From an uncultured Clostridia bacterium (GTDB taxonomy: Bacteria; Bacillota; Clostridia; Oscillospirales; Acutalibacteraceae), in NCBI GenBank assembly GCA_947585615.1, contig CANPXD010000009.1:1-38977 (forward strand): 38,977 nt of DNA, in the 5' to 3' direction. The translations under genes and the position numbers were made by a program. The notes beneath the pieces were generated by a model. That model had not been told where the DNA came from, did not search any database, and was given only the letters and a program-made list of their open reading frames with translations. Positions 16,693-30,996 of the stretch are shown in pieces; positions within the stretch are counted from its first letter, which is position 1; every line of letters begins with the position of its first letter.

Positions 16693-16721
16693 TTGAAAAC
16701 GTTTTTAAACAATGCTATACT
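16693..16721 (+). promoter_or_regulatory. Promoter of leader-RsgA-methyltransferase unit (TTGAAA-N17-TATACT)
   Basis: TTGAAA 16693-16698, TATACT 16716-16721. Confidence 0.65.
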
Positions 16722-16770
16722 ATTAATAACAAATCTCGGCACAACCGGGGCAGAAGAAAGGAGATTGATT

Positions 16771-16803
16771 ATGGGAGTTATATTTGAGGTGGCTGTCCGT
16801 TAA
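16771..16803 (+). CDS. Candidate 10-aa leader peptide MGVIFEVAVR
   Basis: SD AAAGGAG (16758-16763 area), ATG 16771, stop TAA 16801-16803, followed by attenuator-like hairpins. Confidence 0.5.
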   Translation: MGVIFEVAVR

Positions 16804-16816
16804 AAGAGAATATGCG

Positions 16817-16986
16817 GAGCAACCCTGCACGGCAAGCCGTGTTTATTTGCGTTGCTCATTAAACCTTTCGTGAATACTGTTTTTGTAAGGCACGGCAGGC
16901 GTGTCTTTTTTCATGCCTGTTTTCAGATTCGGCCATACAAGCAGACGATAAGGTTTTGCTTGTGTGACATTTTTATGTCCTTTTTT
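16817..16986 (+). promoter_or_regulatory. Attenuator-like leader with mutually exclusive hairpins and two T6 terminators
   Basis: CACGGC(16828-16833)/GCCGTG(16836-16841); GCCGTG can also pair with CACGGC(16891-16896), which competes with the terminator GGCACG-gcagg-CGTGTC-TTTTTT (16889-16911); second set CAAGCA../TGCTTG then GACAT-tttt-ATGTC-C-TTTTTT (16938-16986). Confidence 0.6.
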
Positions 16987-17068
16987 AAGTACAGCCGCAA
17001 TATTAAGGAGTTGATGTTTATGAAAAATAATACAATAAACAGCTTTATTTACTTGGAGGAAAAATATA

Positions 17069-18115
17069 TTGAATATAAAAAATTACGGTTTTATTCCAAG
17101 CGCGGAACAGGATACTTGTGCAGGTATTCCCGCGCGCATTACAGCCTGTCATAAAAACAAGTTTGAATTTGTGTGCAATAAAGGCGAAGGTTTGGCACAT
17201 CTTAAAACAAGCAATTATTTTAAAAGCGACGAAATCTGTCCCACAACGGGCGACTTTGTGGTTATTGATTATCGAACAGACGGTGAGAGCATTATTCTTA
17301 AAACTCTGCCGAGAAAAACTTGTTTTAAGCGCATTGACCCGTCTTCCAACGGCATAGGCGCTCAGGTAATTGCCACAAATTTTGATTATATTTTCATTTT
17401 GCAGTCGCTTAATCAAAACTTCAATCCGAACAGATTGGAGCGGTATTTAACTCTCGCGTGGGAGTCGGTGGCAACACCGGTTGTTATTCTTACAAAAGCG
17501 GATCTCGCAGAAGATTTGCAGAATAAAATGTGCGAGGCGAAGCAAATTTGCCTTGGCGTTGAGGTTATTGCGGTCAGTTCAAAGACGGGTTACGGAACTG
17601 AAAGGCTTGAAAAATATTTAAAAGCGGGCAAGACGGTTGTTTTTCTCGGCTCATCAGGCGTCGGCAAATCAAGCCTTGTGAATTTTCTTGCTGGCAGAAA
17701 TATAATGAACGTAAAAGAAATTAGAAAATCCGACGGCAGAGGACGGCACACAACAACGCACCGTCAGCTAATTATGCTTGAGAGCGGCGCGATGATTATT
17801 GACACGCCCGGTATGCGCGAGTTAGGTATGTGGGACGCGGCTGACGGCCTCGGTCACAGCTTTGCAGATATTGAAAAATATTTCGGCAGATGCAGATTCC
17901 GTGACTGCTGTCATCAAAACGAACCGGGCTGTGCTGTTAAGCAGGCAATCGAAAACGGTGAGCTTTCGCAGGAACGCTGGAACAACTATTTACAACTTAA
18001 GAAGGAGTCAGCTTATTCCGAGGGCAAAAACGATTATCTTATTCAAAAGTGGCAGCGAAACAAACGAATCGCAAAAAATGAACGCAATCTGAAGAAAATG
18101 GGAGGAATAAAGTAA
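17069..18115 (+). CDS. RsgA/YjeQ-like circularly permuted ribosome-associated GTPase (probably a divergent paralog)
   Basis: TTG start with SD GGAGGA; G4 TKAD, G1 GSSGVGKSSLVN, G3 DTPGMRELG, C-terminal Zn site CRFRDCCHQNEPGCAVKQAI. Confidence 0.9.
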   Translation: MNIKNYGFIPSAEQDTCAGIPARITACHKNKFEFVCNKGEGLAHLKTSNYFKSDEICPTTGDFVVIDYRTDGESIILKTLPRKTCFKRIDPSSNGIGAQVIATNFDYIFILQSLNQNFNPNRLERYLTLAWESVATPVVILTKADLAEDLQNKMCEAKQICLGVEVIAVSSKTGYGTERLEKYLKAGKTVVFLGSSGVGKSSLVNFLAGRNIMNVKEIRKSDGRGRHTTTHRQLIMLESGAMIIDTPGMRELGMWDAADGLGHSFADIEKYFGRCRFRDCCHQNEPGCAVKQAIENGELSQERWNNYLQLKKESAYSEGKNDYLIQKWQRNKRIAKNERNLKKMGGIK

Positions 18116-18828
18116 TGACAAATTATGCTGATAAATTAAAATGTATTGTGGACAATCAATATTTAATCAGTATGGTTCCAGTTGACGAATTGTTGAGAAT
18201 AGGCTATGAGCTTGGTCTTGATAAAAACAGCAGAGTTCTTGATTTGTGCTGCGGATACGGAACGCTTCTCAAGATATGGAGCGAGGCTTTCGGTATATCG
18301 GGAACAGGTGTTGACAGATGCAAAGAATTATTGCACACGGGCAAAAAACGCCTTAAAGAAAGCGGCGTTGACCATATCATGCTCGAACACGGCGATGTTA
18401 CAAAATATTGCGACAGCACTAAATATGATGTTGTAATTTGCAGTGAAACTATTGGATCAATTGAGAACACATTCAAGCTTGGGGAAAAATTCCTGAAAGA
18501 CGGCGGAACTCTCTTATTTCAGAAAGTTTATTCGCTTACGGAAAATGTGCCTGAAGAGCTTTCGGAGTTTGACGGAGGCGTTTACCCGATAAGCAAATTG
18601 AATAAAAGATTCAACAGCCTTGGATATTACATAACAAATCTTGCAACCGGAACTGAAAACGACTGGAATCGTTATCACACCTCAAGCGTTCGCAGCGATC
18701 TTGAAAAGATACGCAAAAATCCGAAAGATATAAAGCAGAAGAACCGGCTTGACAAATGGAATGATATGCACTTTATGTACCGAATGCCGTTTGAAAATCA
18801 GGCAATGTTCTGCTTGGAAAAAATATAA
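18115..18828 (+). CDS. Class I SAM-dependent methyltransferase
   Basis: Motif I VLDLCCGYGTLLKIWSE, GVDRCKELL, YDVVICSETIGSIENTFKLGEKFLKDGGTLLFQ; directly abuts the RsgA-like gene. Confidence 0.85.
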   Translation: MTNYADKLKCIVDNQYLISMVPVDELLRIGYELGLDKNSRVLDLCCGYGTLLKIWSEAFGISGTGVDRCKELLHTGKKRLKESGVDHIMLEHGDVTKYCDSTKYDVVICSETIGSIENTFKLGEKFLKDGGTLLFQKVYSLTENVPEELSEFDGGVYPISKLNKRFNSLGYYITNLATGTENDWNRYHTSSVRSDLEKIRKNPKDIKQKNRLDKWNDMHFMYRMPFENQAMFCLEKI

Positions 18829-20720: not shown

Positions 20721-21989
20721 CTATAAAATATAATCGCTTATGCAGTCGTACCAATGGACGTATATTTTTCCGTTTACGGTGAGACGTTCGTTTTCGGGAA
20801 GAATTTCGCTCCACGGTTTCCTGTAACGTTCAATTGCCCAATCATCACGATTGAACCTCCTCCACAGAATCGTTTTTCCGTTTCTGTCCAAAAACTGTTC
20901 GGAAACAACACCACAGTTATAGGTTTCAATATCCATTACACATACTGTATCGTATCTTTTTCCGCCAATGGTAACAGTATACCTTCCAACAATATCCAAG
21001 AGGAAATCTTTATCAGCGCTTACAATAGCGTTTCCGGCCCGTTGAATATCGCCTTTAACGGACAGATTTATTTCTTTGCCGCAATTATCTTCGCCAAACC
21101 CCCAATTTGGCATAAATTCATCGCCGTCAAGGAAAGTAATATAATTGCGTATATCTCCATCATTTCTGAGCGCTGCAAGGTAACGGCAATGCGTGTCTGT
21201 CAGCTGTGCCACAAAGGTACGGTTGATCAAATCGTTCTTATCCGAGCAAGATGCTTCTCTCGCGGTAAGCTCCACTCCTTCAATGCCGTGAACCTTGGCT
21301 TTGCCCGTAACCTGCATATCATAAACATGGCTGCATTTACGGGACGGAATATCATACATACCCCAAGACATTTTTTCACCAAGCTTAGGGATTAAGAACC
21401 ACCCCATCAGTTCTTCCCACTTCACCGAGAAGGGTTTCTCGGTATTGGCTTCAATTTTGTATTCGGGAATCAATTCGGGCATTTTTTTCATACTGCTTTC
21501 TCCTTTCGATACTTGAGTAAAATACGGATATTTGGTTTTGAAGTTTTGTTTTGCCTTATAAAGTCTGCTTTTAACCGTTCCGACAGGAATGTTCAGTTGT
21601 TTTGCAATTTCAGCCTGCTGAAACGCTTCCCAAAAGTAAAGATATAAGATCTGCCTGTCTTTATCTCCAAGCAGGTCTAAGGTTTCTCTTACCGTATCTA
21701 TTACTGAAACACCGTATCTGCTGTCTGACAGTCTATTTTCGGTTATCTCATCAATCGGGATTTCATACTGAGTTGCTTTCCTGCGGAAATAGTCGCTGCA
21801 TTTGTTCCTCGCTATGCTTATTATCCAGGGTTTGAAACTGTCTCTGTTTTTCAGCATACTGAATTTCTGAAAAGCCGCAAGATACGTCTCCTGAAGAATA
21901 TCCTCGGCGCTGTTTCTGTCTGAGATTCTATAAAACACAAAACGTTCAACAACTCTTTTGTGTTCATTAAGCAATATTTCAAAATCCAT
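20721..21989 (-). CDS. ECF-type sigma-70 factor fused to about 240-aa C-terminal domain
   Basis: Sigma2: AEDILQETYLAAFQKFSMLKNRDSFKPWIISIARNKCSDYFRRK; sigma4: LLGDKDRQILYLYFWEAFQQAEIAKQLNIPVGTVKSRLYKAKQ; then MKKMPELIPEYKIE... domain in the same frame. Confidence 0.85.
   Translation of the reverse strand: MDFEILLNEHKRVVERFVFYRISDRNSAEDILQETYLAAFQKFSMLKNRDSFKPWIISIARNKCSDYFRRKATQYEIPIDEITENRLSDSRYGVSVIDTVRETLDLLGDKDRQILYLYFWEAFQQAEIAKQLNIPVGTVKSRLYKAKQNFKTKYPYFTQVSKGESSMKKMPELIPEYKIEANTEKPFSVKWEELMGWFLIPKLGEKMSWGMYDIPSRKCSHVYDMQVTGKAKVHGIEGVELTAREASCSDKNDLINRTFVAQLTDTHCRYLAALRNDGDIRNYITFLDGDEFMPNWGFGEDNCGKEINLSVKGDIQRAGNAIVSADKDFLLDIVGRYTVTIGGKRYDTVCVMDIETYNCGVVSEQFLDRNGKTILWRRFNRDDWAIERYRKPWSEILPENERLTVNGKIYVHWYDCISDYIL
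21489..21507 (-). promoter_or_regulatory. Embedded Shine-Dalgarno and ATG at the sigma/C-terminal domain junction
   Basis: Minus strand GAAAGGAGAAAGCAGT-ATG-AAAAAAATG, in-frame start at 21491. Confidence 0.55.
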
Positions 21990-22011
21990 AATTTCACCAC
22001 CCTTCATTTAT

Positions 22012-30779: not shown

Positions 30780-30966
30780 TTTGCCGCCTTTTGAGACGGA
30801 CTTTGAGGCTGTTTCCAAAAAACAAAAGTGCATTCCCATAGAGGAATGCACAACATTTTAAAATAATTATATATACCTATATAATCGTAAAATGCTCATT
30901 CCTCGGCAGGCGATTAAATAATCTTACGCCAAAAGGCACCTGCTGTCTTTGGTTGAACAGCAAATG
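30780..30966 (-). ncRNA. Ribosomal protein L10 leader (attenuating rplJL leader)
   Basis: Minus-strand leader upstream of rplJ ending in hairpin GTGCATTCC-tctat-GGGAATGCAC-TTTTGTTTTTT (30816-30851). Confidence 0.7.
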
Positions 30967-30967
30967 T

Positions 30968-30996
30968 ATTGTAACACAGGACAAAAGTTCTGTCAA
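30968..30996 (-). promoter_or_regulatory. rplJL promoter (TTGACA-N17-TACAAT)
   Basis: Minus strand TTGACA 30996-30991, TACAAT 30973-30968. Confidence 0.75.

Follow-up and report, generated by a model that had tools for sequence, protein, structure and literature searches.

The window analysed here is a stretch of 38,977 nucleotides from an uncultured Clostridia bacterium (contig CANPXD010000009.1), in which a leader at 16.7-17.0 kb precedes two genes; leader and genes are all on the forward strand (+). The promoter, TTGAAA-N17-TATACT, was located at 16693..16721 (-35 at 16693-16698, -10 at 16716-16721, spacer of 17 nt), and related loci L038-L041 had a similar -35/-10 pair in the equivalent position. 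Near the predicted 5' end lies a small hairpin, P0 (CTCGG/CCGGG, 16735..16749), whose stem reads TCTTG/CAAGA in relatives; the hairpin was retained despite the sequence change across five species of the genus. A Shine-Dalgarno (SD) sequence, GAAAGGAG (16756..16763), precedes a leader ORF of 10 codons, MGVIFEVAVR*, running from ATG to TAA (16771..16803). An earlier note on this DNA had described the promoter, SD and ORF, and all three were found where it had placed them. The leader continues with a hairpin (P1), a 17-nt element (M), two intrinsic terminators (T1 and T2) and the distal strand of a long-range helix (helix A). Element M, its pairing with the SD, and helix A had not been noticed earlier.

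The first gene behind the leader (17069..18115, +) has a TTG start and encodes an RsgA-like GTPase (PF03193, E 4e-52) that matched RsgA chains in the PDB with E values down to 7e-40. The genome has a second, separate RsgA at C10:5385-6149, so the window GTPase is a paralog, here called RsgA2. In a tree, the RsgA2 branch was separate from housekeeping RsgA with support of 100/100, and leader-bearing genes made up most of one RsgA2 subclade (19/23 rows). RsgA2 is thus a member of the RsgA superfamily and is not orthologous to the single-copy housekeeping RsgA. A second ORF of 44 codons with its own SD (ORF2, 17020..17154, +) overlaps the RsgA2 TTG start in another frame, and similar overlaps were visible at L039, L057, L058, and L059; translational coupling or a second control point is possible.

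The second gene (18115..18828, +), whose start overlaps the RsgA2 stop by one base, encodes a class I SAM methyltransferase (PF13847, E 1e-13). Both domains assigned to the downstream genes in the earlier note, an RsgA-like GTPase followed by a methyltransferase, were therefore confirmed. The methyltransferase belongs to the generic Methyltransf_31/25 type, and its PDB relatives were 5bp7, 5epe, and 1nkv (YjhP; E 6e-14), which are uncharacterised SAM methyltransferases; its best match was not a known rRNA-modifying family. The suggestion that the products act on the ribosome thus fits the family of the GTPase and does not extend to the methyltransferase, whose nearest solved relatives are of the uncharacterised YjhP-like kind. 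Within the genus the methyltransferase was present in 5/80 species, behind the leader in all five, and among 399 sampled genomes of the phylum it was found in one, the window's own. The methyltransferase cassette is therefore a patchy accessory cassette. What is left of the leader-methyltransferase cassette at L052 (G388), about 1500-1900, is decayed, which suggests that the cassette was lost within the genus. A mobilisation-type protein is encoded about 3 kb from the cassette at L041 (6268-7110, -), hinting at cassette mobility.

Conserved copies of the leader were found in 4 other species of the genus and in about 20 further genomes from the order and class. A search among congeners at the DNA level identified it in one species, directly 5' of the methyltransferase and with no GTPase. 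When about 85,000 species genomes were scanned for an SD followed by a relaxed MGVIFEVA pattern, four true relatives emerged along with two chance matches (L037 and L042), in which the peptide pattern lay inside other sequence and the remainder of the leader was absent. Among the true relatives, L039 had the order leader-RsgA2-methyltransferase, and L038, L040, and L041 had the order leader-methyltransferase. A covariance model built from five leaders (R1), which carried one misplaced outer T1 pair, found a further eight leaders within the order (E 4e-12 to 5e-4). A second model, R2, correct in that pair and built from 13 leaders, added about ten in two families; four further R2 matches (L068 and L078-L080) were without M and were judged to be chance. 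In the wider class, RsgA2 genes were preceded by the leader at four, perhaps five, loci (L082, L083, L084, L089, and weakly L095), and none of 28 housekeeping rsgA loci had it. Rfam contained no match to the window leader, and ten relative loci had none even at E<1. The plasmid and phage collections gave no leader match, those obtained with an AT-rich relative being low-complexity, and neither the peptide nor M matched viral contigs. A PADLOC scan gave generic domain matches only. The open-licence papers searched in PMC made no mention of RsgA leaders, and an earlier description elsewhere is possible. The window leader is apparently one copy of a switch family that is widespread in gut Clostridia and undescribed within the searchable literature.

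In most cases the gene behind the leader was RsgA2, and many of these RsgA2 proteins carried a fused RNHCP domain (PF12647). At L057, L058, and other RsgA2 loci this domain was C-terminal on RsgA2; the open-licence literature yielded no biology paper on it. Other genes also stood directly behind the leader: a methyltransferase related to that of the window (L065, from a different family within the order), an APH-domain (PF01636) kinase whose nearest NCBIfam was CotS (L071 and L074), a CAAX protease-type gene (L066), and a putative exported protein (L055 and L056, with a Vps62 domain in L055). An exported protein is not what one would expect a ribosome-responsive switch to control. Behind RsgA2, a GNAT-type gene was found at L062, L069, L076, and L084 (GNAT-like by eye only at L075), a methyltransferase and a GNAT-like gene (by eye) at L082, a MatE protein at L081, and an ABC ATPase at L061. 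The APH/CotS-kinase, GNAT, and MATE neighbours suggest that small-molecule modification or export may also be among the functions controlled, these gene families being large and their names no proof of resistance.

A predicted ORF of 9-12 codons behind an SD was found in 25/25 leaders examined, and its length differed among leaders by multiples of 3, i.e., by in-frame indels. An SD with a short ORF was present in 21/21 representative leaders vs about 10% of shuffles. The predicted peptides ranged from MGVIFEVAVR to MIVIKGIFG. No run of one amino acid was common to the 25 peptides, the RLR (R/K-X-R/K) arrest motif of macrolide-type leader peptides (hflXr, erm) occurred in 0/25, and the window peptide contained no known arrest motif. 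Inside the window ORF there is an SD-like GAGGTG (16786-16791), of which GGTG survives even in the divergent leaders L061 and L062; it may pause ribosomes or serve as a second partner for M.

Hairpin P1 (16817..16857) consists of an outer stem, GAGCAAC/GTTGCTC, and an inner stem, GCACGGC/GCCGTG, with compensatory changes in both halves. T1, GGCACGGCAGGCGTGTC followed by T6, spans 16889..16911. The four segments listed in the earlier note, CACGGC (1, 16828-16833), GCCGTG (2, 16836-16841), CACGGC (3, 16891-16896), and CGTGTC (4, 16900-16905), together with the T6 at 16906-16911, were all correctly placed. Pairing 1:2 proved to be the inner half of the larger P1, 3:4 is the stem of T1, and both were kept in relatives with compensatory changes across leader homologs. 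A second hairpin set ending in T6 had also been proposed. A second terminator, T2, does exist there (CCATACAAGC..GCTTGTGTG plus T5, 16933..16974; stem 16933-16966, T5 at 16970-16974); the T6 at 16981-16986 is not its tail and forms part of helix A. T2 occupied the equivalent position in most RsgA2-type leaders, and an intrinsic terminator between the ORF and the structural gene (T1, usually with T2) was conserved.

Upstream of T1 the leader can be drawn as a three-way junction composed of the SD region paired with M, a hairpin of the ORF, and P1. In the junction alignment of 13 sequences, 93.5% of cells were paired and 26/42 pairs had two-sided changes. Cells with two-sided changes numbered 75 vs 20.7 ± 3.8 in shuffled alignments (0/500 as high) in an alignment that was fitted to the structure, and sliding the partners abolished the signal. 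A MAFFT alignment misregisters the SD region, and a model-based alignment, which leans towards the structure, was used instead.

Element M (ACCTTTCGTGAATACTG, also written ACCUUUCGUGAAUACUG; 16863..16879) is 17 nt long and near-invariant, and it is complementary to the SD consensus GAAAGG, i.e., it resembles an anti-SD sequence. Its complementarity to the T1 5' arm and loop was stronger than shuffled in 21/21 leaders (combined p 2.5e-8) and that to the T2 loop (in the window, ACGATAAGG) in 15/18 leaders (combined p 7.6e-5); these values, like those for the structure, are optimistic, the sequences being related and the leaders having been selected in part by models that include these regions. 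The controls (M with P1, reversed M, and reverse-complement M) were all null. With this complementarity in every one of the 21 leaders, M is a conserved candidate antiterminator whose pairing with T1 would be mutually exclusive with termination. Variants of the T2 loop fit its pairing with M: the M sequence of L066 ends in CGCG with a T2 loop of GCGGAAAGG, that of L057 has CGUG with ACGGAAAGG, and in L077 CCUUUU in M is matched by a loop of GAAAAGG. M is present as a single copy, yet it would have two terminators to counter.

In the junction model M also pairs with the leader SD. A test of cognate vs noncognate SD and M pairs gave no overall signal (p 0.36), the flank being cognate-specific in only some leaders. 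The core of this pairing is invariant and so cannot display covariation, and the covarying flank comes from the alignment fitted to the structure. In models of a transcript ending at the T1 loop, M paired with T1 with a mean probability of 0.19 in the free RNA, 0.36 with a ribosome on the start codon, and 0.48 with the SD and ORF covered. The modelled ribosome increased this pairing in 15/22 leaders and decreased it in 3/22. Equilibrium folding of whole leaders showed little ribosome effect in methyltransferase-only leaders, where T1 won regardless; a switch in these would have to be kinetic.

Helix A joins codons 7-10 and the stop of the leader ORF (5' strand, 16789..16805) to TTTTTTAAGTACAGCCGC (3' strand, 16981..16998). 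In the window its energy was -23.8 kcal/mol vs a shuffled mean of -11.8 kcal/mol, and it beat all non-cognate pairs. Across the family it joins ORF codons 6-10 and the stop with a stretch beyond the last terminator and before the gene. Roughly half of the leaders had a strong helix A, its sequence varying widely between them, e.g., GCUAACUGAA:UUCAGUUAGC in L075/L076 and GGCUUUUUCCUGAAAAC:GUUUUCAGGAAAAGCC in L069. Helix A was undetectable in about 9/22 leaders and is therefore not a defining part. Because polymerase must be beyond T2 before helix A can form, the helix cannot decide termination at T2; that it acts on translation of the full message or on its stability is a guess.

The leader holds the predicted components of a leader-peptide attenuator, namely an ORF with a ribosome binding site, a terminator, and a putative antiterminator. 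On balance, ribosome-mediated attenuation of transcription is the probable function of the 16.7-17.0 kb segment; a held ribosome would free the anti-SD mimic M and so block termination. RNA polymerase would make a short RNA carrying a strong SD and an ORF of 9-12 codons. With no ribosome present, M, as a mimic of the anti-SD end of 16S rRNA, would fold onto the SD in the three-way junction, and with M captured by the free SD, T1 and T2 would form and transcription would end. If an antibiotic or another cause of slow translation kept a ribosome on the SD or the first codons, M would be released and could then pair with the T1 5' arm and loop and with the T2 loop. Termination would be weakened and the operon, i.e., the RsgA2 GTPase and methyltransferase, would be made. 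We infer the direction of this switch and its inducer from the sequences, together with products that may protect translation or modify drugs. The attenuator-type leader described earlier, with a short ORF and alternative structures before a GTPase and a methyltransferase, is supported by these results, and comparative genomics strengthens the idea of control by ribosome stress, the inducer being a prediction. A wider reading is offered tentatively, at somewhat under even chances: that the leader is a class-wide, portable sensor of Clostridia in which an anti-SD mimic reads SD coverage and antiterminates two tandem terminators, and that it controls a second RsgA serving as a so far undescribed antibiotic-protection factor, along with drug-modifying partners.

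Other readings of the leader were considered. It is unlikely that RsgA2, as a GTPase of the 30S-binding type, binds M as a 16S-like site and feeds back on its own operon in the manner of a ribosomal-protein leader. M is conserved nearly letter for letter across orders, beyond what pairing demands, and the leader goes mainly with the one RsgA2 subclade (19/23 rows). M also contains CCUUUC, as in the 16S anti-SD tail, and GUGAAUAC, as in 16S near the decoding site; this may be coincidence. Chance alone would yield an 8-nt match to 16S in roughly one case out of four. Against autoregulation, the leader precedes a methyltransferase or kinase with no adjoining RsgA2 at L038, L040, L041, L065, L071, and L074, and it holds a conserved short ORF with an SD. 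The earlier note had proposed classical attenuation of the Yanofsky type, in which GCCGTG of P1 antiterminates CACGGC of T1 and the position of the ribosome selects 1:2 or 2:3. The three complementary segments are indeed present in the window, where 2:3 reached p 0.03, but in the family as a whole 2:3 did not exceed chance (10/20 leaders above it, combined p 0.07). This logic is left without support because 2:3 is not conserved, whereas the pairings of M with T1 and of the SD with M are. L067 lacks P1 altogether, and segment 1 lies about 25 nt past the stop codon; we regard this reading as very improbable.

It is no more credible that the terminated leader acts mainly as a trans-acting small RNA, with M pairing with the SDs of other mRNAs and operon control secondary. 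The complementarity of M to the consensus SD (GAAAGG) would suit such an RNA, and the tandem terminators would release one of about 180 nt, but in the loci read the leader lay immediately 5' of a gene and in the same orientation, and the ORF and helix A would be senseless for an RNA acting only in trans. Least probable of all is amino-acid attenuation or a small-molecule riboswitch. A leader ORF with a terminator is the usual layout of amino-acid attenuators, but the peptides share no single-amino-acid run, the downstream genes are not biosynthetic, and ten loci gave no Rfam match at E<1.

For the preferred reading, a ribosome-mediated attenuator acting through M, the closest analogue is HflXr. 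In Listeria, the hflXr / rli80 attenuator uses a short translated uORF to control a paralog of a GTPase that splits ribosomes, and stalling on the ORF permits read-through (PMC6310831). Both systems place a short ORF and a terminator/antiterminator before a paralog of a ribosome-associated GTPase. They differ in the ORF (14 codons with an RLR motif there, 9-12 codons with none here) and in the GTPase (HflX there, RsgA here), and the hflXr description consulted mentions neither a conserved anti-SD-like element nor tandem terminators nor a long-range helix (PMC6310831). In the E. coli topAI-yjhQ-yjhP operon, stalling anywhere in the toiL uORF, by several drug classes, turns the operon on (PMC12121999). 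The yjhP product of this operon is related in sequence to the window methyltransferase (1nkv). Stalling on toiL exposes a ribosome binding site and affects Rho-dependent termination (PMC12121999), whereas the leader here has intrinsic terminators. The uORFC-6-1 leader upstream of hflX in Bacillales is likewise a structured uORF leader before a ribosome-rescue GTPase; it differs in gene, in order and, going by its description, in sequence (PMC8632094). In Streptomyces, translation-targeting antibiotics induce an RsgA/EngC paralog (SCO6149/SCO5211 pair), GNATs, and methyltransferases through the WblC/WhiB7 regulon (PMC7157823). The regulator there is a transcription factor whose own gene has a uORF attenuator (PMC7157823), unlike the leader-per-operon arrangement here.

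Were the proposed mechanism true, the 17 bases of M would be a search handle for operons switched on when the ribosomes of gut Clostridia are blocked. Such operons would include genes unlinked to drug exposure so far: the RsgA paralog and its RNHCP fusions, the YjhP-like methyltransferase, and APH/CotS-type kinases. RsgA would join HflX as a second ribosome-assembly/rescue GTPase with a paralog under antibiotic-responsive attenuation, and the leader would be a sensor of SD occupancy, not of arrest at one codon.

Elsewhere in the window, an ECF-type sigma factor of 427 aa in all is encoded at 20721-22007 (-), with a long C-terminal extension that matched no Pfam family. A ribosomal protein L10 leader (RF00557, 74 bits) was identified at 30813-30970 (-).
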